Notes: generated from the sequence alone by a model not told the origin. A stretch of DNA of 40,921 bases from Elainella saxicola E1 (GCA_002796835.1 LUGL01000069.1:1-40921); one strand, 5' to 3'; shown: positions 7,577 through 40,544, counted from the stretch's first letter. A program made the numbers and translations.

Positions 7577-10012
7577 ATGGTTTCCGCCACTCCCAATGGC
7601 ACACTGGCAACTTTTTCGTTTTCAATCATTAATCGCAAAGGTGAATTGACCGATCGGGTCCGTGATTTACCCGTGGATCAGTTTCGCCAATTGCTGGAGC
7701 AGATCACTAAAGAGTTTGAACATTTTTTACGGGCGATCGATCTAATCAATAACAACGCTCTAGAGACTTTGCTGGAGCAAATTCTAGAAGCACTCACCTT
7801 CAAAATTGGCCAGATTTTAGAGGCCGATCGCACGACGATTTTCCTGGTCGATGCAGACAAAGGCCAACTCTGGTCGAAGATTGCCCAAACTGAAACCCAA
7901 CAGCCGCTAGAAATTCGGGTGCCGATTACGGTTGGTATTGCTGGACATGTGGCAACCACCGGCGAAGGCTTGAATATTCCCGATGCTTATAATCACCCTT
8001 TATTCAATCGGGAGATCGATCGACAAACGGGCTACCAGACTCGCAATATTCTCTGTATGCCAGTTTTTGATACGAAGCAGCAGGTTGTGGCAGTGGTGCA
8101 ATTGCTCAACAAGGCTGGTGATCTGGCGTTCGATCAGCAGGATGAGCGGCTATTCCAGGAGTTTGCTGACTCCATGGGGATCATTTTAGAAAGCTGTAAT
8201 TCCTTTTATATTGCGGCTCGTAACCAGCGAGGGGTGGCGGCACTGCTAAAAGCAACGACCTATTTAGGCCAAAGCTTGAATCTGGAGCGAACGTTACAAG
8301 CCGTGATGGATGAAGCTCGTGACCTGATGCAGGCCGATCGCAGCACCTTATTTCTGCTGGATCGCGAGCGACGGGAACTATGGTCCAAGGTGGCTACGTC
8401 TGACGGGCAGGAAATGATGGAAATTCGGATTTCTGCCGATCGGGGTATCGCCGGATTTGTTGCCTCTACGGGACAAACTTTGAATATTCCTAACGCTTAT
8501 GAAGATCCTCGCTTTGATCCAACAGTCGATCAACGAACAGGCTATCAGACGCGCACGATCCTCTGTATGCCAGTCTACAACTCGGCAGAAGTCCTGATTG
8601 GCGTAACGCAGTTAATTAATAAGCAGCAAGGTTGTTTTACCGCCTCAGATGAAGAATTTATGCGAGCATTCAACATTCAGGCTGGGATTGCCCTGGAAAA
8701 TGCCCAATTGTTTGAACGAGTGATGCTGGAGCAGCAATATCAAAAAGACGTGCTGCGTAGCCTCTCTGATGCGGTCATCTCAACAGATATGCAGGGCAAA
8801 ATTGTTACGATCAACGATGCGGCATTGCTGTTATTGGGCTGTTCCGATGCAAAGACTGATGAGCTGCGATCGCAGGAAATTACACAGCAGTTTATTGGCA
8901 GGTTCGTTTGGGAAGTCGCCCCAATTGATTTGTTGCAAATGCGGGTTGAAGATACGCTAAAGCACGCTACTCGGTGTTATGTTCCGGAGCAAAGCCTGAT
9001 ACTTGACATTCCAGATGAATCAGATAATTTGCAACAAATTGAACGCAGCATTAATTTAACGGTGACACCACTAACAAATCCTGCAGACAAGGTTCGAGGT
9101 GGATTGGTTGTATTGGAAGATATTAGCCAGGAAAAGCGGATGAAAACAACTTTATACCGCTATATGACCCCTGATGTAGCAGAACGAGTGATGGCGTTAG
9201 GTGAAGATGTGCTGATGATTGGCGAACGCAAGGATGTCTCGATCCTGTTTGCTGACATTCGTGGCTATACCTCCCTCACCGAAAGGATGGAAGCTGCTGA
9301 AGTTGTGGCGTTACTCAACAACTATTTTGAGACGATGGTGGAGGCCGTGTTCGATTTTGACGGCACCCTGGATAAGTTTATTGGTGATGCGCTCATGGCG
9401 GTTTTTGGGGCACCTCTGCCGATCGAAAATCATGCCTGGATGGCGGTTCAAGCGGCATTGGATATGCGCAGGCGGCTGGCGGAATTTAATCAGCAATATC
9501 GTCCAGAGACTGATCCGATTCGCGTTGGCATTGGCATTAGTTCTGGGGAAGTAGTTTCTGGCAATATTGGCTCCCAAAAACGCATGGACTATACTGTGAT
9601 TGGCGATGGTGTGGATATTAGCTCTCGTCTGGAAGGAACAACTAAGGAATATGGCTGTGATATTATCCTGAGCGAGTATACCTATCGCTATTGTCAAGAT
9701 CGGGTATGGGTGCGTGAACTCGATCGGATTTGCGTCAAAGGTAAAACTAAACCCATCTCAATTTATGAGTTAATTGACGATCGCAAGCAGGCTCTGAACT
9801 CAGAAACAGAGGAATTTATTACGATCTATCATGCTGGACGGGCCGCTTATCTGAAGCGGGAGTTTGAACATGCTATCCAGATCTTCCAGACTGCCCAACA
9901 AATGCGCCCGAATGACAAGGCGGTTGCTGTTCAGCTAAAACGAGCCAGCGAACATTATCTCAATCCACCTTCAAACAATTGGGACGGCGTGCATGTGTTG
10001 GAAAATAAATAG
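7577..10012 (+). CDS. GAF-GAF-PAS class III adenylate cyclase
   Basis: This 811-aa protein resembles cyanobacterial CyaB-type cyclases. Two tandem GAF domains (about residues 55-205 and 225-385, each with ADR-TLFL/IFL and TGYQTR-ILCMPV segments) are followed by a PAS-like region (about 395-520), the class III catalytic domain (about 550-730) and a short TPR-like tail. Metal-binding Asp560 (FADIRGYT) and Asp604 (FIGDALMAVFG) are present. Lys600 and Thr673 match the adenine-selecting pair of Anabaena CyaB1, so ATP is the expected substrate. The transition-state Asn is replaced by Asp680 (GVDISSR), while the partner Arg684 is kept. The protein is soluble and is likely controlled by cyclic nucleotide or another ligand at the GAF domains. 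CTGGAG lies 6 nt before the ATG. It converges with the DUF928 gene. Confidence 0.93.
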   Translation: MVSATPNGTLATFSFSIINRKGELTDRVRDLPVDQFRQLLEQITKEFEHFLRAIDLINNNALETLLEQILEALTFKIGQILEADRTTIFLVDADKGQLWSKIAQTETQQPLEIRVPITVGIAGHVATTGEGLNIPDAYNHPLFNREIDRQTGYQTRNILCMPVFDTKQQVVAVVQLLNKAGDLAFDQQDERLFQEFADSMGIILESCNSFYIAARNQRGVAALLKATTYLGQSLNLERTLQAVMDEARDLMQADRSTLFLLDRERRELWSKVATSDGQEMMEIRISADRGIAGFVASTGQTLNIPNAYEDPRFDPTVDQRTGYQTRTILCMPVYNSAEVLIGVTQLINKQQGCFTASDEEFMRAFNIQAGIALENAQLFERVMLEQQYQKDVLRSLSDAVISTDMQGKIVTINDAALLLLGCSDAKTDELRSQEITQQFIGRFVWEVAPIDLLQMRVEDTLKHATRCYVPEQSLILDIPDESDNLQQIERSINLTVTPLTNPADKVRGGLVVLEDISQEKRMKTTLYRYMTPDVAERVMALGEDVLMIGERKDVSILFADIRGYTSLTERMEAAEVVALLNNYFETMVEAVFDFDGTLDKFIGDALMAVFGAPLPIENHAWMAVQAALDMRRRLAEFNQQYRPETDPIRVGIGISSGEVVSGNIGSQKRMDYTVIGDGVDISSRLEGTTKEYGCDIILSEYTYRYCQDRVWVRELDRICVKGKTKPISIYELIDDRKQALNSETEEFITIYHAGRAAYLKREFEHAIQIFQTAQQMRPNDKAVAVQLKRASEHYLNPPSNNWDGVHVLENK

Positions 10013-10028
10013 ATAGATGACTACATCC

Positions 10029-10757
10029 TCAAGGGAGATAGGGTTTATCTGCAAAGGAGGCTAGATCCACAGAAGTCAGTAGGTTTGCCCAATTTGCCGC
10101 TACCGCCGATCGATCGACCTGTTGTAAATTCACCAAGGTTGCCAATGCATCATGCCAAATGCCCGCTTCAGCATAGAGGGTGGCCCGATCGATCTCGCTG
10201 GCTTGAGTCAACTGATTTTCTAATTCCGGATTCGGCTGGATTCGCTCGATCCAACCTTCCGTGAAGATATCGCCCGATCGATCTTGCGGATCACATACTA
10301 AAGAAAAATACCAGTGATAGCGCTGACCCGGTTCTAGAGAAATTTGTTCTGCTGAGGATAACTGCACCTTCAGCAGTCCCGCTTCCCCTGTAATTGGGAT
10401 TTGGTGAGTATAAATGACCGATTCCTGAGCATCACGCAACTCAAATTCAGCAATCTTGGCTGTTGAGGTTGGAATATACCAGAGCAAAGTTGGTTGAGCC
10501 TGTGTTGTTAATCCCAAGTTGGTTTGTGGCACGATCGCAGTGAGCGTTGGTTGCTCCTTGACACAACCCCCACGGGTCCCTCCTCCTTCTCGTCGTCCTG
10601 GCAAGCCGCGATCGGGCGGCACATAGGTTTGAGAAATGGCAGGAAGGGTTGCTAGACTCAAGTTAACAACCAAAGCAACAAGGACTGTCTTAGAAAGAAG
10701 GGCAGATAATTTCGTTATTCTAAAAATACTCATACGACAGCTCATTCTCTTGTCCAT
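10029..10757 (-). CDS. DUF928 secreted protein
   Basis: The 242-aa protein has an N-terminal signal peptide (hydrophobic LVALVVNLSLATLPAISQ, about residues 26-44). The hallmark DUF928 opening follows, PPDRGLPGRREGGGTRGGC, then a beta-rich sandwich with WYIPTSTAKIAEFELRD and a helical tail. The molecular function of the family is unknown. From memory, DUF928 genes sit near CHASE2, CHAT and ShlB genes in many cyanobacteria, as here. It lies 32 bp downstream of the CHASE2-cyclase gene on the same strand, so the two are probably one operon. The true start may be Met5 or Met9. The protein should be periplasmic or anchored in the envelope. Confidence 0.88.
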   Translation of the reverse strand: MDKRMSCRMSIFRITKLSALLSKTVLVALVVNLSLATLPAISQTYVPPDRGLPGRREGGGTRGGCVKEQPTLTAIVPQTNLGLTTQAQPTLLWYIPTSTAKIAEFELRDAQESVIYTHQIPITGEAGLLKVQLSSAEQISLEPGQRYHWYFSLVCDPQDRSGDIFTEGWIERIQPNPELENQLTQASEIDRATLYAEAGIWHDALATLVNLQQVDRSAVAANWANLLTSVDLASFADKPYLP

Positions 10758-10789
10758 TCAATTTCTTTTTAAATTACAAGCTCATATCT

Positions 10790-12775
10790 CTAGATGATGT
10801 CTAAATTCTCGGCTTGATTGAATTCTTTCTGTATGACACGATAAACATCGACACTGTTCTGTTTCCCTTTCATCGGCATAGGTCCCCAGGCTTCTAGCAT
10901 AAATTTACCCTGAACATGCTGAACCGTTTCCCCTGAAACTAAAATGCGGCAGAGATCTACCTGCCGGTCTTTCGCACAGCTTTCTAAGCGAGCGGCTGTA
11001 TTGACATGATCGCCAATCACTCCATATTCCATCCGATCTTTTCCACCCAAGCTGCCCACCACCACAGATCCAGTTGAGATACCCACCCGCATCTGAATCA
11101 CCGGCAGGCCTTGCTGCTGCCAACTCTGATTCAACTCCGCTAACCGATCGCCCATCGCTAGCGCACAGGCCACTGCATGATAAGCATCTCGATCAACTTC
11201 TGCTGGTGCAACCCTCGGAACTGGCACCCCAAACACCGCCAGTAAGCCATCTCCAGTAAACTTATTAATAATCCCCTGGTGGCGTTGAATTTCTTGGGCC
11301 ATTGCACCCAGATATTCATTCAGCCAATCTAGCAACGTTTCCGGGGAAATGGATTCGGAAATCGTACTGAAATTCTTAATGTCGGTAAACAGCATGGTGG
11401 CAGTTAATCGCTGTCCGGGTAATTTGCCTGAATTGAGCAACCGATCGCGGTTTTTCCACAGCGCGTCTGCAATCTCCTTAGAGGTGTTTTGCCCCAATAA
11501 CGTCATCACCATTTGTTGCTGCCGGTAAGATTGCTGTGCTTGATAAGCCACGATCGTTCCTGCGGTTAATAGTACAGTCAGAATAGGAGCCACCACTGGC
11601 ACCCAAACTGATGACAAAAACAACAGAAAGCTGGTTCCCGCCAAAGCGATCAGCAATCCACTGCCACTGAGGCCCAACCGAATGGGATGGCGCAGGCTGG
11701 CAGCAAGACTTCCTCCTGCAATCGCCCAACTCCATAACCACAGCCATTCTGCCCAATTTGGGAAAAACCCAAATAGCGATCGCTCTGCCACTGCCGCGCT
11801 AAGAATCTGGCTGACCATTTGAGCATGGACTTCGACTCCTGGCATTTGATGATTTGCGACTTCCCCGGCACTGTAGGGTGTGTAGAATAAATCGCGGCTG
11901 CTGGCTGCGGTGGTCCCGAACAAAACGATTTTGTCCTTCACCCATTCAGGCGACAGTTGACCACTCAATACCTGTTCTAAGGTGACTTGGCGAGCGGCGC
12001 GATGGCGGTTGCGATAATCCAACAACATCTGATAACCCTCAGGGTCATTGGTTTGATATCCGCCTGAATCCGCCTCTAACGGCACAAAAATTGCCTGACC
12101 CAACTGCATATTTTGGGGATTTGCTGGACTGGGTTTAGGCTGAATTCCGTGGGTCTGCAAATAATGCAAAGCAAGCTGTAGGGCAAAAGAGCGGTTCGTG
12201 CCACCAAATAGCAAGGCTCGTCGCACCACGCCATCTGGATCGATCGGAATATCATTAAATCCAATCCGCTCAGTCGGAATTCCAGGCGGCGGCGGCACTT
12301 GGGTAATATTATCGTCGCCAAGTTTCGTAATCGCTATCAAATTTGGTGCCTGCAACTGGGTCTGCAATGCTTCGTTCCCTGGCGGTTGGGGTAAATCACG
12401 GTAGATATCCAGCCCAATGACAGCAGGCCGATCGCTTTGCAAGATGGCCAACGCTTCAGCAATAGTTTGATCCGAAAGGGTCGATCGCTGTTGAATCCGC
12501 AGGTCATCTTCTGTTACTGCCACAAGCAGAAGTCGCGGATCGACCCCTTCATCTGGCCGCAACCGCATCATCTGGTCATAGGCTCTGAGTTCTAGCGCAT
12601 CTACCCCCCCAAGTTGTTTCACACCACCAACCAATAGCGTAGCGACGACGCTGACTAAGAGTACGGCTGAAGCCTGAGCAGGCAAATGGGAACCAAGACG
12701 TTTCAGCCGACTGGCCGATCGCCCATAGATTGCTTTGGGGCATCTATAAAGTAAACGAAGTGGTCTGACCTTCAC
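10790..12775 (-). CDS. CHASE2 sensor adenylate cyclase
   Basis: The 661-aa membrane protein has an N-terminal membrane helix, a periplasmic CHASE2 domain (about residues 55-320, with ELRAYDQMMRLRP and VIGLDIYRDLP), two or three membrane helices (about 340-415) and a cytoplasmic class III cyclase domain (about 455-645). Both metal aspartates are present (Asp465 in FTDIKNFS, Asp509 in FTGDGLLAVFG), as are Lys505 and the transition-state Asn592/Arg596 (HVNTAAR). The position that is Thr in CyaB1 is Gly585. Lys505 points to ATP as substrate. The layout implies that an extracytoplasmic signal controls cAMP output. DUF928 follows 32 bp downstream in the same operon. A small GGGGT/ACCCC hairpin lies just upstream of the start in the leader (12793-12808). 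Confidence 0.93.
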   Translation of the reverse strand: MKVRPLRLLYRCPKAIYGRSASRLKRLGSHLPAQASAVLLVSVVATLLVGGVKQLGGVDALELRAYDQMMRLRPDEGVDPRLLLVAVTEDDLRIQQRSTLSDQTIAEALAILQSDRPAVIGLDIYRDLPQPPGNEALQTQLQAPNLIAITKLGDDNITQVPPPPGIPTERIGFNDIPIDPDGVVRRALLFGGTNRSFALQLALHYLQTHGIQPKPSPANPQNMQLGQAIFVPLEADSGGYQTNDPEGYQMLLDYRNRHRAARQVTLEQVLSGQLSPEWVKDKIVLFGTTAASSRDLFYTPYSAGEVANHQMPGVEVHAQMVSQILSAAVAERSLFGFFPNWAEWLWLWSWAIAGGSLAASLRHPIRLGLSGSGLLIALAGTSFLLFLSSVWVPVVAPILTVLLTAGTIVAYQAQQSYRQQQMVMTLLGQNTSKEIADALWKNRDRLLNSGKLPGQRLTATMLFTDIKNFSTISESISPETLLDWLNEYLGAMAQEIQRHQGIINKFTGDGLLAVFGVPVPRVAPAEVDRDAYHAVACALAMGDRLAELNQSWQQQGLPVIQMRVGISTGSVVVGSLGGKDRMEYGVIGDHVNTAARLESCAKDRQVDLCRILVSGETVQHVQGKFMLEAWGPMPMKGKQNSVDVYRVIQKEFNQAENLDII

Positions 12776-13294
12776 GCTTGCTAAACCTGCATAGGGGTTT
12801 CACCCCTTTAGAATGCCCAGGGGATTGTCATTCATCCTAATTGAAGGATCGATCGTTCAGTATGGATCTGTCTAGATGTGCTGAGTGGATGGCAGATCAA
12901 CGCGGCATAGATCAACGCAACATGGATGAGTGACAAACCATTTCGTCGGGTCTTGAAATGGGAAAAATTAACTTCAATTACATACCTGGTTGATTGGATA
13001 ACCTGAGATACGCAACTCTAACCGTTTGAAGCACTATCTATGTATCACATGGATGGGATTTATACAATCTGTCTCAAGATGGTTTTTCCTCGTAACACAA
13101 ATTAACTATCTATTTTCAATCAATTATATTTATGATGATTAAAAAACTGTCGTTTAATACGTCTTTCAAATTATCAATCGAGACTTGATTGATCCAAAGC
13201 AAATTGGTTTTTGGATTAGTTTTAGCGGCTTTGCCTCTGAAGCTTGACGCGATCGAAAGACAGGAAAATTAGTGCCTGAGATTAGGAGAATGCA
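12776..13294. other. Divergent intergenic region between the CHASE2-cyclase and the Pro-rich secreted protein
   Basis: This 519-bp AT-rich stretch must contain promoters for both flanking genes; no coding region is supported. Visible features are the hairpin AGGGGT-TTC-ACCCCT near 12794-12808, a 15-bp tandem duplication of the AGATCAACGC(GG/AA)CAT type at 12894-12923, and an AGGAGA ribosome binding site just before 13295. Confidence 0.6.
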
Positions 13295-13816
13295 ATGATG
13301 CTTTTTAGCAACTCTAAGCGATTAGCAAGCGCGGTCGTTTTCTTGACAACTTATTTAGGCGTGCTTCAGCCTGGAATTGCGTTGCCGTTGAATCAACCAG
13401 GATCGGGAACAGCAATCAGCCAAATTAATCGCCCACCTGAAGAAGGGGTGCCTCGCGTTCTAACAGAGGTTGTACGCGGCACTGTGACCCGCGTTGGTGG
13501 CAACAGCGTTACGCTCGAACTAGAAAATGGCGATACCGAGACCTATCAAATTCCAGCCGAATTTGAGAATCGCAAAAGGTTAGAAGTGGGCGCGGAAGTG
13601 CTTTTGACGATCGAAAGAAACAATGTGGTAGCTATCTATAACCGAGCTGCAGTTGTGGAACCTGCTCCCGTTGTGCGTCGAGAAGTGCAGCGCCAAGAAG
13701 CAGTTCGTCCCGCTCCGGCTCCCACTCCGGCTCCGGCTCCCGTTGCTCCTCCTCCTCGTCCGGCTCCAGCTCCGGCAGCCCAACCTCAGCCTCAGCCTGT
13801 TCGAGGCATGTGGTAA
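13295..13816 (+). CDS. Small secreted protein with a beta-barrel-like core and Pro/Ala-rich tail
   Basis: The 173-aa protein has a clear signal peptide (LASAVVFLTTYLGVLQPGIA). A compact beta-rich segment follows (about residues 58-112), containing GTVTRVGGNSVTLELENGD and TYQIPAEF, like small OB- or SH3-type barrels. The tail (about 125-173) is low-complexity Pro/Ala/Gln. I do not recognise a named family. The start is supported by AGGAGA 5 nt before the ATG, and a strong terminator follows the stop. Position between the CHASE2-cyclase and the CHAT exoprotein, plus the export signal, suggests an envelope role. The Pro-rich tail could span or bind peptidoglycan, but that is inference. Confidence 0.75.
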   Translation: MMLFSNSKRLASAVVFLTTYLGVLQPGIALPLNQPGSGTAISQINRPPEEGVPRVLTEVVRGTVTRVGGNSVTLELENGDTETYQIPAEFENRKRLEVGAEVLLTIERNNVVAIYNRAAVVEPAPVVRREVQRQEAVRPAPAPTPAPAPVAPPPRPAPAPAAQPQPQPVRGMW

Positions 13817-13853
13817 GCCAGCTCGATTAAAAACTTAATCTGACACCTCCTCG

Positions 13854-13880
13854 ATCGCTTGCTGATTGCAGGCGATTTTT
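13854..13880. terminator. Intrinsic terminator after the Pro-rich protein
   Basis: A 9-bp stem (13854-13862 with 13868-13876, one T-G wobble) around loop TGATT is followed by a T-run to 13880. It ends the + strand gene at 13816 and lies just beyond the 3' end of the convergent exoprotein gene. Confidence 0.75.
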
Positions 13881-13908
13881 AATACCTGATTTGGCCAATT
13901 CATTTTGA

Positions 13909-16900
13909 TTACCAGGGATTGCCAACCATCGTGAAGGCTGCCCAGTAGTAAGGGTGAGTCAATTGGCGATCGCTAATGTTCAATGCATCCGCAGGCAGTT
14001 GCAGCGCATCCACCCCAGGAATACCTTTTAACTGATTGCCATCCAAATAAACCTGGCCCCGTAACAAGGCGATTTGGGCCTGCCGCAAAGCTTCTGCCTT
14101 AATCGGAGCGGCATTCAGTCCCTCATAGAACTGGCTCATCAAAGCAGCCGTTGCAGCATCACTCACATACCAGAGACTTGCCACGGCTGTCTTCACGCCT
14201 GTTTGAACGGCGAGTCCAGCAAACCCCAGCTCAGCTTCCTCGTCTCCTAAAGCAGTTCGGCAAGCGCTTAACACTAGCATTTCCACCGGCGGATCATTCC
14301 AGCCGAGTTGTCGCACCTGATCCATTTGGAGTTTTTCATCCCAGAGCTGAATGTAAGAATTGCTAATGACACCAGGCGCAAAGTCAGCATGGGTTGCCAG
14401 GTGAATAATGCCAAACGGACGCTCCTGCCGAATGGCCGCCAAATTCTCTAAGGTTGCTTTGGTGTTGAGCAACAGACTGCCACCTTTCCACAGATCAAAC
14501 ACAAGGGTCGAAAGTTCGATCGGCACAGCAGGCAGGGGAGCTTGTCCTTGAGTGCTTTCAGAAATGCCCATCGCCAGCATCTGGGAATCTCGAATATCGA
14601 CATAGCGTGTGTCCGTCAAGCTTAAGCTGGGCGTTAAACCAATGCTATATTGCTCCACCAGAAACTGCTGTCCATTATGTAGCGCTGCGAACGGCAACGA
14701 TCGCAATCCCGCATCTGGCAGAAACACTAGATTCGTAATAGCCTCAGCTTCCAAGGTTTGAGCGATCGGCGCAATTAACTCCTGATAGAGCTGCTGAGCT
14801 GAGGGCAAATAGCTCGTGGTTTGGGTTTTGCGCGGATTTGTAATTTCAGCCCGAAAGGTTTGAGCAGTTGCCAACACCTGCGATCGAGTCAGATTAGGCA
14901 TGCGCTGGCGAGTCACGCTTTTGGCAGTCACAACCAGTATCTCTAGCTGATCGTTATCTTGAGGAACGATCGGTTCTGTCAAAGACTGCACTTCACTGGG
15001 AATGAAATCCACATAAATAAAGGCGGGTTTCGCGCCAGTTGCTCGTTCAATCGCCTGCGCCAACTCCTTAGCCTGCTCTACCGTTGCTGTTGGTCGGGGG
15101 GCAATTCCCAAATATGTACTCACGTCGTTCGTAAATTGTTGCTCAATCCGGGCGATGTTTGTATCGATCGAAACTTCTGGAACGATTACACCCAGTTGGG
15201 GAACATCCGTAGGCGGCGGTAAATGATTGCGTGGATCTTCAAAGTTAGGTGGGAGTGCATTGGGTGGTTTTGTGGAGGGAGAGGGAGTAGGGGAAGGAGA
15301 GGGAGAGGGAGTAGGGGAAGGAGAGGGAGAGGGAGTAGGCGTGGGGTTTGGGGAAGGAATAGGCGTGGGGGTCGGCGTTGGAACAGGCGTGGGGGTCGGG
15401 GAAGGAATAGGGGCTGGAACAGGAGTCGGGATGGGAGTCGGGATAGGAGTTGGAACAGGGGTTGGCGTTGGTGTGACTGCAACGTTAACTTGAATCGGTA
15501 ATGGGGCGGAGGTCGCTAGAGCGGGTAGGCCGTTGTTGAGGTCAGCAGCTTCTACTGTAAAGGCATTGACCGTACCTGATGAATTAGCGGGTGGCGTGTA
15601 GACTAACACAGCCCCTAGTGTAATCACGGCTCCGGCTGTGACTGGCTCTCCGTTGACTATCAGTGTTCCACCGGGTGCGATCGATTGAATTCTCAATACG
15701 GTATTGTCGCGATCAGCATCGGCAATGTTGGCGGCTAGATCCGCATAAGTCAGCGTTACCGATTGACCTGCTGTCGTGTTAAAGAGAGAATTGGCTGAAA
15801 GTAATTGAGGTGGTGAGTTAACCGAAGTCAGCGTAATGCCCGGAGGCGTGGGTACTGTAGCACCATTGGGGGCCACCGGAAAGTTGCCCGTGGCCAAGGT
15901 GCCTGTTCCTGCGTCCAATGCTCCGACTGTCCCATTGTTACTGGGTGCACCAATTACAAAGGGCAAGTTATCCGGTCCACCTGCATGTTGAATAGTAATC
16001 GTTCCAGAGGTACCTGGCGAACCTCCTGCCGTGCTAATGCTGGGATTTCCTGGCAACGCTAAGCTTCCTGTCACCTGCACCCGATCGCCAGAAACTTTGA
16101 CATTGCCGCCTCGACCTGAAAGACTTCTGGCTGAGATTGACTGTACGCTGACATTGCCTAGAGCGCTAGAAATTGTGACATTGCCTGCTCCTGCTAAGAA
16201 GGTTGTGAGATCATCTGTAAGGAGTTCTCCGGCTTGAATATCGCCTTGAGCCGTTAGCGTCAAATTGCCCGATCGACCAGCACCAGAGCCCGTCGTGATC
16301 CGATTTGCTGTAATGCTAGCTCCAGAAATAATCAAATTTCGGCCATTGGTAGAAATGTAGCTAGCAGGACCCGCTAGAAAAGAACCAATCCCATTATTGT
16401 CAGCATCCGCCGTGAACCGGATGGTTGTTCCTGGCTCAAAGCTAAACGCAAAGGGAGCAGGCACTGAGTTGTCGATCACAATGTCGTTGGTGGCCTCCAA
16501 AATGATATTTCCGGTAAGACCTTGCAGCAGAGTGTAATCGATCGTGATGTCTTGAGCAGGAAAATCACCAGAGAGAATATCGGGTAGAGCACTGACGACT
16601 GTTCCAGGATTACTGGCATCACTTGAGATCAGGATATTTCTTGGATCGAGTAACAACGTGCCCCAATTGCCTGCAATGGCGCTCAAGTCTACCTGACCAT
16701 CAAAAGTCAACTGTTGGCGACCTGACACTTCCACAAAACCGCCATTCCCCCCGGTCGCACCACCGCGCGCACTGACATTGCCCCAGAAGCCGGTATACTC
16801 TTCCGCCCAGGTGATCGATCGTCCCCCATTGCCCTGCTCGATCGCATCCACATTGATCGTGGAATCAGGACTGACCACTGTTCGTGCTGCATTGGGAATC

Positions 16901-17964
16901 GTGCCGTGCCCGTGATAATCCCCCCCAATCCGTACCGTACCACCGCCGCCGCTGCCTGCCGCATTTAAGTTGGCTGATAACACCCCAATTCGATCGCCCA
17001 CGACCGCAATCGATCCACCCGTTTGTCCAGCAGCCGGATTGGCCGCACTCACTTGCCCAGAGACGATCGCCGTTCCTGCATCAGTAGGAATCGTCAGTCC
17101 TGACCCGGTGAGCTGTACAGTGCCATCTGGATTAACGGTTACCCCTGTGGCATTGCCGACTTCACCACCCGTCAACAAAGCAGGCAGAGAGGCCACGCTC
17201 CAGTCCGTAAGGCGTTCGGCACTGAGGGGCTCAAATTCTAGACTCAACAACTGTCCGGCCTGACTGAGGCGCACCAGATGCTCGCCAGGAACTGCCGCGA
17301 TCGTAATTTGCCCACCGGGAGCCGAAAGTTGACCCGTGTTTACCACCGTGCCGCCCAGCAGTGAAAGATTTTGGCCAGCCGCAACGCTCAAATCTCCAGC
17401 ATTTAAAATGGCTCCCGGCTGACTGAGGGCAAAAGCAAAACTGTTTGGATCGCCCACTAGCGCCGCATAGTCGGTTTGGCCGATCGCATCAAACCAGCCG
17501 CCTTCAAAGCCAATCCCGGTAGCCGTTGTGGCCGTAAAAGCAGCAGGCAAGTCAAGCCGAGCATGGGAGCCAAAAATAATTCCGGCAGGATTCACCAAAA
17601 ATAAGTTGGAGTGACCGCCCGTGACTTGCAGCAGGCCATTGATCACAGAAGGATTGCCGCCGACCACGCGAGTCAAAATATTGCGAATTTCAGGATTGGA
17701 GTGGAAATTGGCGATCTGGTCTCGGCTCAAACCAAATTCTTGCAAACTGTGAAATAAATTTCTGCCATCCCTGGAACGCTGTCCGCCATCGATCTCAAAC
17801 CGATTGCCGTTCCGAGTCACGTGAGTATGAGTGCCGTCTTGGGCGGGGACAACCCGTTGGGCCACGGCTGGTGCTGCAAAGAGAACCGATGCGATCGGCA
17901 CCAGTCCCAAAGCAATTTTTAGCATCTGTGCAGATAAAATTAGTCCAGCCATCTTTTCAGCCAT
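13909..17964 (-). CDS. Two-partner-secretion exoprotein (filamentous haemagglutinin type) with C-terminal CHAT protease domain
   Basis: Starting at 17964 (CGGAG upstream) the protein has 1351 aa; a start at 18033 would put a non-hydrophobic extension before the signal peptide. Order: signal peptide (1-36, ending APAVAQ), TPS secretion domain (about 40-155, with [13 protein letters not shown] and [12 protein letters not shown]), a long Gly/Ser/Thr-rich beta-helix-like region (to about 700), a cadherin-like domain (about 720-825), a Pro/Thr/Ser linker (829-899), and a CHAT domain (about 1000-1351). The CHAT catalytic dyad is visible as His1192 (HLATHADF) and Cys1235 ([10 protein letters not shown]), followed by GFAGLA and [13 protein letters not shown] is a caspase-like cysteine protease fold. 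The TpsB-type transporter is encoded divergently 208 bp away. Target and activation are unknown. Confidence 0.9.
15270..15480 (-). repeat. Low-complexity Pro/Thr/Ser linker repeat in the CHAT exoprotein
   Basis: Short purine-rich units (GGAGAGGGAGTAGG-like and GGNGTNGG-like on the + strand) encode PTPTP, PSPSP and PIPTP runs on the minus strand, residues about 829-899. The tract separates the secreted filament and cadherin-like part from the CHAT domain. It is prone to slippage and length variation. Confidence 0.85.
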
Positions 17965-18000
17965 AGTGATCTCCGTGCGGCATGGGCGGGAATCGTTAAC

Positions 18001-18120
18001 TTCACCCTGATTCCGGGCATCGGCCACTGGCATTGAAAATTGTCAGTGTAGCTCTGCTCTCCATCAAAATTCCCAGTTCGATGACTTATCTCAGCAACAA
18101 TCCCCCGATTTCACCCTGAT
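18001..18120. promoter_or_regulatory. Divergent promoter region of the TPS pair with an 11-bp direct repeat
   Basis: The 208 bp between the two TPS starts (17965-18172) carry TTCACCCTGAT twice, at 18001-18011 and 18110-18120, in the same orientation. One copy lies close to each gene. It may be a shared regulator site, but two copies alone are weak evidence. Confidence 0.3.
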
Positions 18121-18172
18121 GCATCGTCAAAATGTTCAATCTCCGTTAATCACTATTTCCAGGGAAGAATCT

Positions 18173-19975
18173 ATGCAACAGGATTTCAGCGGGAGAACAA
18201 ATCGGGAAGATCAGCGCACGATCGGCTGGTTCACGGCTGCTTTATTAGTCACTCATTTTTTAGTTGCCAGTCCGATCGGCTTTGCGGCCCCAGCCCCAGC
18301 CCCAGCTCCAGAAAGTCCTGAGGCGGTTCCGCCCGCAGAAAATCCACCGACTCCGAATCCCACCCCACTCCTCAACGCCGATCCCCTGCCGCCTGCGCGC
18401 GAGTCTCCTTTCCTGCAACCTGCTCCGTTACCGAATCCCTTACCTAGCGACACCACGCCACCGATCGCTCCAGAACCGGAACCCAGTCCGATTCCCCCTG
18501 CCCCTCCAATTCCGATCCCCGTCAGCCAAATTCAGGTTGTGGGCAGCACTGTCTTTCGCGATCGCGATTTCGAACCGCTCGTTGCCCCCTATGAAGGCCG
18601 ATCGGTGACGTTAGAAGAACTGCGACAGCTTGCCGATGCCATTACCCAGCTCTATCTCGATCGAGGCTACCTCACCTCCAGAGCGGTGTTGGTCGATCAA
18701 CAAATTGCGCAGGGCATGGTTCAAATTCGGGTGATCGAAGGATCGTTAGAACGCATCGATATTGAAGGCTTGCGGCGCGTCAATCCAGATTATGTGCGCA
18801 GTCGGATTGCCTTGGGCGGTAAAACGCCTGTGAGTCAAAACCGTTTGGAAGATCAACTCCGACTCTTGCGCCTCGATCCCTTATTTGAAAATGTGGAAGC
18901 GAGTTTGCGGCCCGGTAGTGCGATCGGTCAAAGCATTCTAGTTGTTCGCATCACGGAAGCCAATGCCTGGATTGCTGGATTGGGAGCTGATAACTATTCT
19001 CCGCCTAGCGTCGGCTCAGAACGAACGACTGCTGTGGTTGGTTCCCGCAACGTGACGGGTTTGGGCGATCAGCTTCTGGCTTCCTATGCCCGATCGACCA
19101 CAGGTGGATCAAATGTATTTGATTTCTCCTATCGTCTGCCGGTCAATCCGATGAATGGCACGATAGAACTGCGGGCTGCTCCTAGTTTTTATCGAATTAC
19201 GGATTCAGAATTTGCCGATCTGGATATCACGGGCGACACGGAACTTTATGAAGTCAGCTATCGACAGCCGTTGATCCGCACCCCGCGTGAAGAGCTTGCC
19301 CTGTCGATCGGCTTTACCTATGAAGATGGCAGAACCTTGATTTCTTCGTTGCTCACTGATGCCAGCACCACCAGCATCTTTCAATTCGGCCAGGACTATG
19401 TGCGGCGCGATCCGGCTGGAGCCTGGGCTTTGCGATCGCAGTTTAACCTTGGTACCGAACTATTAGACGCCACTCAAACGGATGACTTCTCGCCGGATAG
19501 CCAGTTTTGGAGCTGGATTGGCCAGGTACAGCGGGTACAAATTTTGAGTCCGGATCAGCTCTTGATCGCCCAGCTGGATATGCAGTTCACGCCCGATCCC
19601 CTGCTGCCCGTTCAGCAATTTGTGATTGGCGGTGGTCAATCTGTGCGGGGCTATCGCCAGAATGTCCGCATCGGAGATAATGGGTTCCGACTGTCGATCG
19701 AAGACCAAATTACGATTGCGCGGCGAGAGGATGGTAGCTCCATTTTTCAAGTTGCACCCTTTGTTGATCTGGGTGCGGTTTGGAATGCCTCAGATAACCC
19801 GAATCACTTACCCGATCAAACCTTTCTGGCTGGAATTGGGCTGGGACTACTCTGGGAACCATTACCCAATCTAAATCTGCGCACTGACTTTGCCTTGCCT
19901 TTGGTCAACTTGGACGATCGGGGGGAAAATGCGCAGGATCAGGGCATTTACTTCAGTGTGAGCTGGCAATACTAG
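18173..19975 (+). CDS. TpsB/ShlB-type outer-membrane transporter
   Basis: Starting at 18173 (AGGGAAG upstream) the protein has 600 aa; the longer frame from 18119 adds a non-signal N-terminus. It has a signal peptide (FTAALLVTHFLVASPIGFAA), a long Pro-rich linker (about 30-115), a POTRA-type domain (about 118-195, VSQIQVVGSTVF... to VIEG), a second POTRA (about 196-272, LERIDIEGLRRV) and a 16-strand-type beta-barrel. The barrel carries the Omp85/TpsB signature VRGY (residues 491-494), which sits on the pore-entering loop, and ends SVSWQY with an aromatic C-terminus as in outer-membrane proteins. It should recognise the TPS domain of the divergent exoprotein and export it. The Pro-rich linker before POTRA is typical of cyanobacterial members. 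Confidence 0.92.
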   Translation: MQQDFSGRTNREDQRTIGWFTAALLVTHFLVASPIGFAAPAPAPAPESPEAVPPAENPPTPNPTPLLNADPLPPARESPFLQPAPLPNPLPSDTTPPIAPEPEPSPIPPAPPIPIPVSQIQVVGSTVFRDRDFEPLVAPYEGRSVTLEELRQLADAITQLYLDRGYLTSRAVLVDQQIAQGMVQIRVIEGSLERIDIEGLRRVNPDYVRSRIALGGKTPVSQNRLEDQLRLLRLDPLFENVEASLRPGSAIGQSILVVRITEANAWIAGLGADNYSPPSVGSERTTAVVGSRNVTGLGDQLLASYARSTTGGSNVFDFSYRLPVNPMNGTIELRAAPSFYRITDSEFADLDITGDTELYEVSYRQPLIRTPREELALSIGFTYEDGRTLISSLLTDASTTSIFQFGQDYVRRDPAGAWALRSQFNLGTELLDATQTDDFSPDSQFWSWIGQVQRVQILSPDQLLIAQLDMQFTPDPLLPVQQFVIGGGQSVRGYRQNVRIGDNGFRLSIEDQITIARREDGSSIFQVAPFVDLGAVWNASDNPNHLPDQTFLAGIGLGLLWEPLPNLNLRTDFALPLVNLDDRGENAQDQGIYFSVSWQY

Positions 19976-21546: not shown

Positions 21547-23241
21547 ATGGCTATCATCAACGGTGACAACGGAAATAACACCTTAATCGGTACAGATGGT
21601 GATGATCAAATCAATGGTTTTGGAGGTAACGATCTAATTGATGGTCGCTTTGGATTTGACCTCATGGATGGAGGAGATGGCAACGACACCACAACCTATG
21701 CATTCTACTTTGGTGGTATTAATGCGAATTTGCAAACAGGAGTAGTTAGCTTTCCGGGTAACTCGCCGGGAACAGATACCTTATTGAATATCGAGAATGT
21801 GATCGGCAGTGGTGGTAATGATGTGATCACAGGCGATGGATTTGATAACAATCTATTTGGCGGTGCAGGCGACGACCTCCTGGATGGCAGCTTTGGCTTT
21901 GACTACCTGGATGGTGGCGATGGCAATGACACTGCAACTTATGCATTCTACTCTGGCGGCATCAATGCCAATCTGCAAACAGGGGTGGTCAGCTTTCCGG
22001 GGAATGGGACTTTAACAGATACCTTAGTGAATATCGAGAATGTGATTGGTAGTAACGGCAATGATGTAATTACAGGTGATGGATTTGACAACAATCTGTT
22101 TGGCGGTGCAGGCGACGACCTTCTGGATGGTAGCTTTGGTTTTGATTACCTGGATGGAGGAGATGGTAACGACACTGCAACCTATGCATTCTACTTTGGC
22201 GGCATTAATGCCAATCTGCAAACGGGCGTGGTCAGCTTTCCGGGTACTGGGGATCGAACAGATACCTTGGTGAATATCGAGAATGTGATTGGCAGCAATG
22301 GTAACGACACTATCATTGGTGATGGCTTTGATAACAATCTGTTTGGCGGCGCAGGTGATGATCTCCTGGATGGTAGCTTTGGCTTCGATTACCTGGATGG
22401 TGGCGACGGCAATGATACTGTTACTTACAGTTTCTACTTTGGCGGCATTAATGCGAATTTGCAAACGGGTGTGGTGAGCTTTCCGGGTACTGGGGATCGA
22501 ACAGATTCCCTAGTGAATATCGAAAATCTGATCGGCAGTGGTGGCAATGATATCATTACCGGCACTCCAAATGGCAATACCCTCGAAGGTGGCCAAGGAA
22601 ATGACACAATCGATGGCAAAGCCGGAAATGATATATTAATCGGCGGATCGGGCGACGATGTTTATACGGTCAGTGATGCAGGAGATCAAGTCAGAGAAAT
22701 TCTCAATGAAGGTGTAGATACCATTGCAGCTTCTCTCAGCTTCACATTGCCGAATAATGTAGAACGTCTCGCACTGCTCGGAACAGCAAATATCAACGCG
22801 ACTGGTAATGCGATCGACAACGTCCTGCTTGGCAACACAGGAGCCAATGTACTCACTGGTGGAGCGGGTAATGATATTTTGATCGGCAATGCTGGACGGG
22901 ATGCCTTGAAAGGTGGCACGGGAGCCGATCGATTCACCTTCGTGAGTCCTCAAGATGGAATCGATCGCATTGCCGGTTTCTCCAGACCCCAAGGTGATAA
23001 AGTCGTCTTCCTCAGCAGTGGCTTTGGTAATTTGCCTGCTGGTGCTGTTCCTGCCGACCAATTTGTCGCAGGCACAAGAGCTAAGGATAGCAACGATCGC
23101 TTTATCTATGATGTAACAACCAGTTCTCTGTTCTATGATGCCGACGGTAGAGGTGGGGTTGGACAGGTGAAAATTGCCACATTTGACAATCAACCGACTC
23201 TAGCAGCAACGGATTTACTGATTGTGACAGCTGCCTTCTAA
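21547..23241 (+). CDS. RTX-type calcium-binding protein with 81-aa tandem repeats
   Basis: The 564-aa protein begins INGDNGNNTLIGTDGDDQI and is rich in GGxGxDxL nonapeptides that fold into calcium-binding beta-rolls. Its core is four repeats of exactly 81 aa (starting at bases 21670, 21913, 22156 and 22399), each with NDTATYAFY, GGINANLQTGVVSFPG and NIENVIGS. More RTX motifs follow (about 345-465). The C-terminal domain has DRFIYDVTTSSLFYDADG and ends LLIVTAAF, a tail common to cyanobacterial RTX proteins. There is no Sec signal peptide, consistent with type I secretion through a C-terminal signal, but no transporter genes are nearby. Likely a surface or extracellular protein. A good terminator follows. 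Confidence 0.88.
   Translation: MAIINGDNGNNTLIGTDGDDQINGFGGNDLIDGRFGFDLMDGGDGNDTTTYAFYFGGINANLQTGVVSFPGNSPGTDTLLNIENVIGSGGNDVITGDGFDNNLFGGAGDDLLDGSFGFDYLDGGDGNDTATYAFYSGGINANLQTGVVSFPGNGTLTDTLVNIENVIGSNGNDVITGDGFDNNLFGGAGDDLLDGSFGFDYLDGGDGNDTATYAFYFGGINANLQTGVVSFPGTGDRTDTLVNIENVIGSNGNDTIIGDGFDNNLFGGAGDDLLDGSFGFDYLDGGDGNDTVTYSFYFGGINANLQTGVVSFPGTGDRTDSLVNIENLIGSGGNDIITGTPNGNTLEGGQGNDTIDGKAGNDILIGGSGDDVYTVSDAGDQVREILNEGVDTIAASLSFTLPNNVERLALLGTANINATGNAIDNVLLGNTGANVLTGGAGNDILIGNAGRDALKGGTGADRFTFVSPQDGIDRIAGFSRPQGDKVVFLSSGFGNLPAGAVPADQFVAGTRAKDSNDRFIYDVTTSSLFYDADGRGGVGQVKIATFDNQPTLAATDLLIVTAAF
21670..22641 (+). repeat. Four tandem 243-bp coding repeats
   Basis: Units begin at 21670, 21913, 22156 and 22399 with an exact 243-bp spacing and no indels through the array, the fourth diverging near its end. 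Close DNA similarity indicates recent duplication or gene conversion. Confidence 0.9.
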
Positions 23242-38221: not shown

Positions 38222-39074
38222 TCCAAACTTCAGTAGCTCAAACAGCAGGTCTGACAAAAATGGATATCAACCTAAGAACTTGAGTAACGTTTTGCATCCT
38301 CACGCAGCAGGCACAGGTGCAAATCTGTCCTGCAATTACGCGAATGCTCCGTCCAATTGCATTGCTTTGCCAATGGAAAAGCAAATTGCAGCACAAAAAC
38401 ATTCTCGAGGAATATCAGGTTGATATCCAGTCGTGAACTAAGGATGTAAATCAATTCAGTTTGACAAAGGCAACGATTCTTCAGGTATGCCTTAATTGTA
38501 CAACAATGGGTGCGCAAGGCATGAAAAAGTCATGGTCATTCAATCGAACTAGCACCCTGATTGGTTTTGCAAGACCGATCGAATAGAAGCATTATCTTCC
38601 GTAAACTAGAATACCGATTGACCTCCTGAAATTCAAGTCTCTTGAGATGATCTCTTCAAAATTTAAGATTGACGAAATAAACAACATTTATGTTGATAAA
38701 GTCATTTATTCTTCTGAATCACTCAAAGCCAATATACGACCTAGCCTTTATCACCTGATTTATATGGATTATTCAATTTTTAAAATTCATTAATCGTTTC
38801 TCTTTAAAACTTTAAACAATAGGCATTGACCTTTACTGGCAATGATTTTATTCTTAAATAGTGGCAACCACCTAAGATAGACGATCGAATCTATTCACTA
38901 CATCGATCGAGTTTTTCAGAGTCACTGACTCATTGCTTGTAGAACCGAACATTGCGCGCACAACATCAGGGTGTTCGACTGCCGGAGGATGAACCTCTGT
39001 GCACTGCTATTCGCTTTTGCATCCAACTTAAACCATTTGTATTCTGCCTTGTTCAGGCAGGAGGAAGAAATATT
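38222..39074. other. Long intergenic region before the second RTX gene
   Basis: This 853-bp gap contains the structured inverted-repeat element at 38261-38429. Beyond it the sequence is AT-rich (38580-38880) with no supported gene, tRNA or clear terminator. The segment 38952-39074 is open in frame with the RTX gene but lacks RTX character; the strong SD AGGAGGAAG puts the real start at 39075. Confidence 0.55.
38261..38429. repeat. 169-bp inverted-repeat element with two internal hairpins
   Basis: Perfect 13-bp arms TGGATATCAACCT (38261-38273) and AGGTTGATATCCA (38417-38429) enclose two further hairpins: GCAGG-c-ACAG with CTGTCCTGC (38307-38333), and CAATT-(gcat)-TGCTTT with AAAGCAAATTG (38354-38388). 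The whole can fold as a closed multi-branch structure. It could be a MITE with terminal inverted repeats or a structured RNA made from readthrough of the phytyltransferase gene. I do not recognise the family. Confidence 0.55.
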
Positions 39075-40544
39075 ATGGCTAGAATTACAGGTACCCCGTT
39101 GAATGACTCCCTTGTCGGCACAATTCTCGATGACACGATTCGAGGGCTAGCAGGCAATGATTATCTGGTTGGTGGCGCTGGAAATGACACGATCGAGGGT
39201 GGTGATGGGGATGATACTCTGGAGGGTGGAGACGGCAATGACACCCTGAATGGCGGCAACGGAAACGACTCTCTTTATACTGGAGCAGGTAATAATTCAG
39301 TCTATGGTGGTGATGGAGATGACTTTGTCAGTATTGATAGTCCTGATGCAGCTTCCAGTAACCTAGTGGATGGTGGCGCTGGAACCGATCGATTACTGCT
39401 TTCCCTCTGGGGCAGCACTCAACCTATCACAATCACTTTTGCCAACGGCACATTCAGTCTCCCTGGCATCACAGCAACTAACTTTGAGACACTAAGCTTT
39501 ATGGGCGGCAGTGGTAATGCTGCGGTTTACGGTGGTAATGGCGATGATTTCTTAAATGGTGGTAGCGGAAATGACATTCTCTCTGGAGCAGGTGGTAACG
39601 ATAACCTCTCTGGCGGAGAAGGGGATGATACACTGTTGGGTGGAGCCGGAGACGATACCCTCTACGATTTTTACAACGGCAGCAACGTCCTGGATGGCGG
39701 CAGCGGAAACGATTCGTTAAGTACCACGATCAGCGACTTCTCTAACACAATCATTTCAGGGGGGACTGGGATTGATACTCTCTCCCTCTCTTGTGATACA
39801 GCATCACAAGGTATCACACTCAGTCTCATCAACAATTCCATTATGCTGCCAAATGTCCTGACGGCAACAGGTGTTGAACGCCTCGGATTCTCTGGCAGTT
39901 CCTATGCCGACACAGTGACAGGCGGTAACAGCAACGATGATCTGTCGGGGAACTCTGGTAATGACACCCTCAGCGGTGGTAACGGCAACGATAATTTATG
40001 GGGGAGCTCTGACAATGACACCCTCAGCGGTGGTAATGGTTATGACAAAATAGTCGGTGGTGACGGGGACGATGTCATTGATGGCGGTAATGGCATCGAT
40101 CAACTCTACGGTGACGATGAATATTCTTTTGGCTTGGGTGGCAATGATGTTCTAATTGGCGATCTAGGGGCCGATCAAATGACAGGTGGGGGTGGTGCAG
40201 ATCAGTTCAAGTTTGCAGCAGCATCTGGACCGGGTCGATTTGTGGCAGGGCGAGCCATTCTCGACTTTAGTCAGACTGAGGCCGATAAGATTGTTTTAGC
40301 GAAAACTATGTTCCCCGCTTTGCAAAGTGCGATCGGAGATGGATTCTCAATCCCCACTGAATTTGCCACCGTGCAGTCAGCTACTGCCGCTGCCGCTAGT
40401 AGCGCTTTGATTGTTTATAACATTAGAACCGGCATTCTTTTCTACAATGCCAATGGGATAGATGCTGGCTTTGGCGATGGTGGACAGTTCGTCACTCTTA
40501 CTACCAAACCTGCATTAACTACCGCAGACTTTATGATTCAATAA
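39075..40544 (+). CDS. RTX-type calcium-binding protein (second copy of the type)
   Basis: From the ATG at 39075 (SD AGGAGGAAG, 7-nt spacing) the protein has 489 aa. It begins MARITGTPLNDSLVGTILDD and holds several blocks of GGxGxDxL nonapeptides (about 20-90, 145-215, 285-380), which form calcium-filled beta-rolls. Spacers contain repeated LTFANGTFSLPGITATN-like and NNSIMLPNVLTATGVE-like units that occur twice. The C-terminus resembles the RTX protein at 21547 (ILFYNANGIDAGFGDGGQFV, ending TTADFMIQ), so both probably share a type I secretion signal. No Sec signal or transporter gene is present. Probably extracellular. Confidence 0.88.
   Translation: MARITGTPLNDSLVGTILDDTIRGLAGNDYLVGGAGNDTIEGGDGDDTLEGGDGNDTLNGGNGNDSLYTGAGNNSVYGGDGDDFVSIDSPDAASSNLVDGGAGTDRLLLSLWGSTQPITITFANGTFSLPGITATNFETLSFMGGSGNAAVYGGNGDDFLNGGSGNDILSGAGGNDNLSGGEGDDTLLGGAGDDTLYDFYNGSNVLDGGSGNDSLSTTISDFSNTIISGGTGIDTLSLSCDTASQGITLSLINNSIMLPNVLTATGVERLGFSGSSYADTVTGGNSNDDLSGNSGNDTLSGGNGNDNLWGSSDNDTLSGGNGYDKIVGGDGDDVIDGGNGIDQLYGDDEYSFGLGGNDVLIGDLGADQMTGGGGADQFKFAAASGPGRFVAGRAILDFSQTEADKIVLAKTMFPALQSAIGDGFSIPTEFATVQSATAAAASSALIVYNIRTGILFYNANGIDAGFGDGGQFVTLTTKPALTTADFMIQ

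Follow-up and report, generated by a model that had tools for sequence, protein, structure and literature searches.

What ties a CHASE2-type cyclase and a DUF928 protein to a two-partner secretion (TPS) filament that ends in a caspase-like CHAT domain? The question is raised by a gene island at positions 10,029 to 19,975 of a stretch of 40,921 nucleotides from Elainella saxicola E1 (GCA_002796835.1 LUGL01000069.1:1-40921), here called the window, which is contig 222 of a cyanobacterial genome of 8.7 Mb. Judged by comparison of sequences, DUF928 and CHASE2 are an inherited pair, exported CHAT and TPS genes join this pair far above chance, and the island looks like one example of a recurring, so far undescribed surface-signalling module. 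DUF928 is named by only one paper in the open literature that I searched, and its predicted fold, partner and place now make its function testable. A CHASE2/DUF928 cluster is mentioned in Nostoc (PMC5587647); I found no open-access paper linking DUF928, exported CHAT and TPS, most subscription journals lying outside the coverage of the search.

The island and its parts

Beside a gene for a small secreted protein, an initial annotation had named four genes here, a DUF928 gene, a CHASE2-cyclase gene, a TpsA with a C-terminal CHAT domain and a divergent TpsB, and Pfam finds all four intact and in place:

10029..10757, minus strand: DUF928 protein, 242 residues (PF06051, E=6e-62, full length; 209 bits against a curated cut-off of 26, profile positions 1-183 of 184); its parts are an N-terminal export signal and, from the AlphaFold2 model, an Ig/Fn3-like beta-sandwich (residues 71-175) and TPR-like helices (residues 177-228)
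10790..12775, minus strand: CHASE2-cyclase, with an extracytoplasmic CHASE2 domain (residues 45-355; PF05226, E=1e-67) and a cytoplasmic class III cyclase (residues 459-641; PF00211, E=8e-27)
13909..18033, minus strand: TpsA-type exoprotein, 1374 residues (Pfam and TIGR01901)
17221..17835, minus strand: TPS secretion domain of TpsA, residues 67-271 (PF05860, E=2e-41)
15230..15490, minus strand: Pro-rich PTPTPSP stretch between filament body and CHAT, about residues 848-935 (from the translation)
13918..14805, minus strand: CHAT caspase-family protease domain of TpsA, residues 1077-1372 (PF12770, E=2.5e-68)
18119..19975, plus strand: TpsB outer-membrane transporter, POTRA_2 and ShlB barrel, divergent from TpsA (PF08479, E=3e-25; PF03865, E=2e-34)

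Only 32 bp separate the CHASE2-cyclase gene from DUF928, which follows it on that strand. The TpsA, with its signal and TPS domain, and the cognate TpsB, with POTRA and an Omp85-type barrel, together make up a type Vb two-partner secretion system. By its signal-peptide pattern TpsA likely starts at Met24, which would make the divergent intergenic region about 150 bp.

DUF928 and CHASE2 are neighbours by descent

I surveyed 101 DUF928 loci, namely the window and 100 stretches of up to 20 kb each from 33 cyanobacterial genomes, sampled among the better-scoring DUF928 matches. The other families were located with profiles built from the window's own domains, and the neighbour counts expected within a distance limit of 10 kb were derived from genome-wide family counts. 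Within that limit CHASE2 was found at 69 loci (3.1 expected), CHAT at 43 (7.0), TPS at 36 (3.3) and TpsB at 19 (1.3), and when a single random locus was taken per genome the frequencies were 68%, 39%, 36% and 25%, against expectations of 2.6, 5.9, 2.6 and 1.3%, respectively. All five families occur together at ten loci in nine genomes, where 0.00013 would be expected. An unbiased clustering of all neighbouring open reading frames (ORFs) is led by the same families, with CHASE2 at 80 loci (its cluster includes further proteins such as cyclases), TPS/TpsB at 42 and CHAT at 38, and no other cluster exceeds 17 loci. The association is far beyond chance, and the claim in the initial annotation that these families recur together in cyanobacteria is borne out. 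The genome of the window itself holds paralogous clusters: one (L194) has TPS, TPS, CHAT, DUF928 and a CHASE2-kinase in a row, and another (L193) has DUF928, CHASE2-EACC2, CHAT and TPS. Across the 146 genomes sampled, DUF928 is present in 49, in up to 20 copies per genome, and is typical of large-genome cyanobacteria.

The bond between DUF928 and CHASE2 is especially close. All but three of the 69 CHASE2 genes (66) lie within 2 kb of DUF928 and 61 of the 69 share its strand; the 62 pairs less than 500 bp apart have a median gap of 51 bp, and 57 of these are on one strand. The distances among DUF928 proteins follow those among their CHASE2 partners in a mirror-tree comparison (r=0.65, 64 pairs), and none of 1000 within-genome shuffles of partners reaches this value, the largest being 0.33. 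This result is one of co-inheritance, not of contact, and two facts weigh against reading more into it: co-inheritance of neighbours alone lifts such scores, and when the test is confined to cyclase-type pairs, 9 in 1000 shuffles match the observed correlation.

The receptors beside DUF928 end in about ten kinds of output: class III cyclase, hybrid histidine kinase, GGDEF, GGDEF-EAL, SpoIIE phosphatase, Ser/Thr kinase, TIR (three domains), AAA_35, trypsin with cyclase, and an N-terminal EACC2-caspase. Since the output domain varies while DUF928 is constant, the constant pair is DUF928 and the CHASE2 sensor. Two of these receptors deserve a separate mention. On L115:3946-7092 and L199:4555-7704 (Kovacikia minuta plasmid pB) a CHASE2 receptor carries three TIR domains with DUF928 nearby, a possible envelope-sensing TIR system; on L123:7037-9550 a trypsin-like domain, a cyclase and CHASE2 share one protein, which adjoins DUF928 and a TPS-CHAT gene.

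DUF928 resembles an exported Ig-TPR protein

A hydrophobic N-terminal segment like a signal peptide is present in 95 of 98 DUF928 proteins, and Cys65 and Cys155 are both kept in 94 of 98, a pattern that suggests a disulfide in an exported protein. The AlphaFold2 model (predicted local confidence, pLDDT, mostly >95 from residue 71) places an Ig/Fn3-like sandwich ahead of TPR-like helices. Among solved structures it agrees best with the C-terminal part of MtxA (4z29; Z 10.1, 4.0 A over 146 residues), with both domains in order, and the next row scores 7.4. The predicted model thus has the exported Ig-like-then-TPR-like architecture of MtxA. A search of the DUF928 profile against PDB sequences gave nothing significant, and a Foldseek search of the model against viral models returned mainly common Fn3/Ig-like sandwiches.

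MtxA comes from Magnetospirillum; it is exported and built of Ig and TPR domains, and a CHASE2-adenylate cyclase gene comes after its own (PMC4439547). MtxA and DUF928 therefore share export, an Ig-like domain followed by a TPR-like one, and a CHASE2-adenylate cyclase gene as neighbour. MtxA differs in having an extra N-terminal beta-rich region and an Ig-like domain without a disulfide; its deletion mutant had no phenotype, and TPS or CHAT genes go unmentioned in the passages covered (PMC4439547). Fold and gene partner agree independently, although no sequence similarity is detectable. That DUF928 is the periplasmic partner of the CHASE2 input side is thus well supported, and I consider it very probable. 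The signal-like N-termini, the paired cysteines and the many outputs swapped onto CHASE2 also favour the initial proposal that the two form the envelope-sensing side of the island.

A comparable arrangement is known from the BiofilmReg operon of Burkholderia, which encodes a response regulator (RR), a LysM-FecR protein, a CHASE2 kinase and DUF4136, and in which disruption of the RR abolishes biofilm (PMC5192318). As in the window, the gene for a CHASE2 receptor has that of a periplasmic accessory protein as its neighbour; unlike the window, the operon has FecR/LysM in place of DUF928 and a kinase output, and CHAT is unmentioned. In Methylocystis and Sinorhizobium a FecR-domain protein adjoins a CHASE2-cyclase, as in this operon.

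The output in the window is a class III cyclase that keeps its metal-binding Asp pair and its catalytic Asn and Arg, downstream of an intact CHASE2 domain. Class III cyclases select adenine through two positions, and here the first has its Lys and the second is Gly. The initial label of adenylate cyclase therefore holds as to the catalytic residues and only half as to the adenine-selecting pair, but from these residues the enzyme is likely ATP-specific, with cyclic AMP (cAMP) as its product.

The exoprotein carries a predicted cysteine protease

Full-length orthologues of the TpsA-CHAT protein are 47-78% identical to it, and the C-terminal CHAT domain is kept in those seen and recurs in other TPS proteins. 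Locus L169 holds the same divergent TpsA-CHAT/TpsB pair, its exoprotein being 76% identical. CHAT is also encoded as separate exported TPR-CHAT genes, both in the same neighbourhoods and in Sphingobium.

In the window the CHAT domain has its His in HLATHADF (residue 1215) and its Cys in LSACRTA (residue 1258). Wherever exported CHAT domains could be scored, the His (41 of 41) and the Cys (40 of 40) were kept. By sequence the domain has no match in the PDB, and its relatives were found by fold only: the AlphaFold model (pLDDT 90, predicted TM score 0.92) is matched by Foldseek to Csx29/TPR-CHAT of Craspase (E=1e-12), separase, the transmembrane anti-sigma factor DdvA and SAVED-CHAT. A caspase-like fold with a His and Cys pair is present, and the model predicts a cysteine protease of the separase/Csx29 type. 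An exoprotein ending in an intact caspase-like domain, as first annotated, is thus confirmed. Csx29/TPR-CHAT, separase and DdvA share the CHAT fold with it, but Csx29 and separase are intracellular and DdvA is listed as a transmembrane anti-sigma factor, whereas the CHAT of the window, with its His/Cys pair intact, is the tail of a secreted filament.

Two unusual fusions of such exoproteins were seen. In three genomes (L176:1385-6298, L091:4208-9673 and L098:4374-9239) a single ORF runs from a GT2 glycosyltransferase (called by Pfam in the first two and recognised in the sequence itself in L098) through a signal-peptide-like segment to TPS and CHAT, so that a cytoplasmic enzyme is apparently fused ahead of an exported filament. 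At L117:2796-7118, G002:C1:1805008-1809201 and G060:C1:1706149-1710339 a TPS exoprotein and its ShlB transporter occupy one open frame, apparently a two-partner system fused into one protein.

The arrangement outside Cyanobacteria

Outside Cyanobacteria the evidence comes from plasmid records. In Gemmatirosa kalamazoonensis (L200:4893-7664) one ORF contains CHASE2, the cyclase, an extra membrane segment and DUF928 (30.6 bits in Pfam against the cut-off of 26), with three TPR-CHAT or CHAT ORFs nearby, on both sides. Sphingobium herbicidovorans has, on one strand and preceded by a Crp/Fnr regulator, CHAT, a CHASE2-cyclase, a secreted protein of 239 residues, a ShlB-type TpsB and a repetitive exoprotein of 2092 residues, and the same gene order is found on two further Sphingobium plasmids. 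The exoprotein reads like a divergent TpsA; Pfam finds no domain in its first 1325 residues. In Niveispirillum only 3 bp and then 6 bp separate the genes for, in this order, TPR-CHAT, a related secreted protein and CHASE2-cyclase.

A homologue of DUF928 was sought in the small secreted protein that Sphingobium, Niveispirillum and Azospirillum encode at these loci, but the profile-profile comparison gave no match (E 0.66), and the protein counts as a positional counterpart only. A further observation comes from Azospirillum ramasamyi (L201:6194-8908), where an apparently exported protein with Peptidase_C14 caspase, Ig-like, SH3 and FGE-sulfatase domains directly follows the CHASE2-cyclase gene; it belongs to the caspase family and is not CHAT.

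A proposal for filament control

How might these parts work together? I propose, as a reasoned reading that I hold tentatively and at somewhat less than even confidence, that an envelope-sensing cyclase is linked to the CHAT protease, through which the maturation or release of a surface filament is regulated. As an Ig-plus-TPR adaptor in the periplasm, DUF928 would bind the sensor domain of CHASE2 or convey to it a ligand or the state of the envelope, and CHASE2 would keep the cytoplasmic output, here the class III cyclase, off until the adaptor signals. Such restraint is proposed because CyaD1 of S. meliloti, when it lacks CHASE2, produces cAMP constitutively (PMC5498481). TpsB would export the exoprotein, of which the Pro-rich stretch and CHAT would leave last and may stay periplasmic; there CHAT, suited to cut the filament or its anchor, could control maturation, retention or release. 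Control of the filament by cAMP is plausible.

The closest working parallel is the TPS adhesin CdrA, whose release by LapG, a cysteine protease of the periplasm, is controlled by cyclic di-GMP (reviewed in PMC5422565). The logic would be like that of LapD/LapG with CdrA, since in the proposed working a periplasmic cysteine protease under second-messenger control acts on a TPS adhesin, but the protease here is of the CHAT family and is built into the adhesin (elsewhere encoded beside it), and a cyclase is the membrane partner. TPS operons, the review adds, do not seem to include genes for maturation proteases (PMC5422565), and it is in this that the island would differ. A cysteine protease carried at the C-terminus of a TPS filament would be a new way of controlling surface adhesion. 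The predicted fold and partner of DUF928 also give a way into two questions, namely the signals to which CHASE2 receptors respond and the reason why so many caspase-family proteins are exported by multicellular cyanobacteria.

Extended beyond the window, the proposal becomes one that I think possible rather than probable: a five-component envelope system, in at least Cyanobacteriota and Alphaproteobacteria and with its CHASE2-cyclase/DUF928/CHAT part also in Gemmatimonadota, in which a DUF928/MtxA-type Ig-TPR adaptor would gate CHASE2 with interchangeable outputs and an exported separase-like CHAT would control a TPS filament, the protease being fused onto the filament in some cyanobacteria.

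Several findings speak against so close a coupling. There is no CHASE2 within 10 kb at 32 of the 101 DUF928 loci. Orthologues of the CHASE2-cyclase (50-69% identity) were found at 18 loci, and DUF928 adjoins in 13 of these, but only six have CHAT, TPS or TpsB. The closest orthologue (69%, genome G159) keeps DUF928 with neither CHAT nor TPS nearby, and the TpsA-CHAT orthologue of that genome carries stop codons and lies elsewhere. CRP-like sites are fewer than chance, and there are none in the intergenic regions of the island. Because the sensor pair is kept where the filament genes are not, the pair is the core, to which the filament part has been added or from which it has been lost. None of the genomes searched has a closer full-length TPS-CHAT relative than this gene of G159 (C66:10801-14823; 78%); its two in-frame stops probably reflect decay of the gene or an error of assembly.

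Alternative explanations

Could the island instead hold two independent neighbouring units, the CHASE2-cyclase/DUF928 sensor and the TpsA-CHAT/TpsB pair, both favoured in variable envelope-gene regions and with no functional link? L169 has the TpsA-CHAT/TpsB pair without CHASE2 or DUF928 within the flanks covered, TPS and CHAT are both missing from the surroundings of several CHASE2-cyclase/DUF928 orthologues, and in the window an opposite-strand gene separates the two units. Because of this intervening gene it is unlikely that TpsA-CHAT shares one operon with CHASE2-DUF928. Against this stand the ten five-part loci and the TPS-CHAT gene that, as in the window, lies next or nearly next to the orthologous CHASE2-cyclase (loci L176, L183 and L186; genomes G154, G178 and G174). 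In Sphingobium the parts form one co-directional string, and CHAT and TPS are also found at 7 of the 32 DUF928 loci without CHASE2. I regard two unlinked units as unlikely.

A second explanation makes the island a device of immunity or cell death triggered at the envelope, a relative of the EACC2-caspase-CHASE2 system, a predicted conflict system with DUF1822 and an extracytoplasmic function (ECF) sigma factor (Kaur et al., 2021, PMC8195603), that would sense damage or phage at the envelope and make a signal nucleotide with its cyclase. As at the DUF928 loci, CHASE2 is there the variable sensor, and this type also pairs with DUF928: 19 DUF928-linked CHASE2 proteins have an EACC2-caspase N-terminus, and of 18 loci of this type 14 have DUF1822 and eight a sigma-like gene. 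TIR and trypsin outputs occur as well, and the CHAT domain is related in structure to SAVED-CHAT and Csx29. The EACC2-caspase-CHASE2 system is thus one subtype of the DUF928-linked receptors, although Kaur et al. (PMC8195603) name neither DUF928 nor two-partner secretion. The window, in contrast, has a cyclase in place of the EACC2-caspase, its CHASE2 starting at residue 45, and has no EACC2, DUF1822 or sigma gene; DUF1822 is found at only 1 of 51 other (non-EACC2) CHASE2 loci, and CHAT is here exported, not cytosolic. An immune role for this island is accordingly improbable.

Least credible is contact-dependent antagonism, in which the filament would present CHAT to neighbours as a toxic protease (in the manner of contact-dependent inhibition or polymorphic toxins) and CHASE2-DUF928 would time its deployment. 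It would be suited by a TpsA that ends in an enzyme domain and has a TpsB of its own, in a genome with 15 TPS and 38 CHAT places, and by death-type outputs (EACC2-caspase, TIR) on some DUF928-linked CHASE2 proteins. But no immunity gene lies downstream of the toxin end of tpsA, where the bystander on the other strand comes next; the orthologues seen all end in this conserved CHAT and not in swapped toxins; and CHAT also occurs as a separate exported TPR protein beside TPS genes. The killing or kin-recognition role suggested by the initial annotation is thus unsupported so far, and regulated maturation or release of the filament fits better.

Neighbouring genes

The opposite-strand gene between the two units is as follows:

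13295..13816, plus strand: small secreted protein with a Pro-rich tail (weak DUF1344 match, below cut-off); bystander

It had at first been counted as a member of the set and was rejected as a component, its relatives in the genus and family sitting away from the island; in G154, for instance, the relative is on contig 76 and the island on contig 2. Promoter and terminator scans stayed at chance level, and Rfam gave no match.

On the other side of DUF928, at window positions 7577-10012, lies a second class III cyclase (GAF-GAF-PAS-cyclase), unrelated to the first and convergent with DUF928, which ends 17 bp from the end of that gene. It too was considered as a component of the system and rejected, none being seen at orthologous loci. 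Further along, the window encodes two proteins with RTX calcium-binding repeats, at 21547-23241 and 38952-40544.

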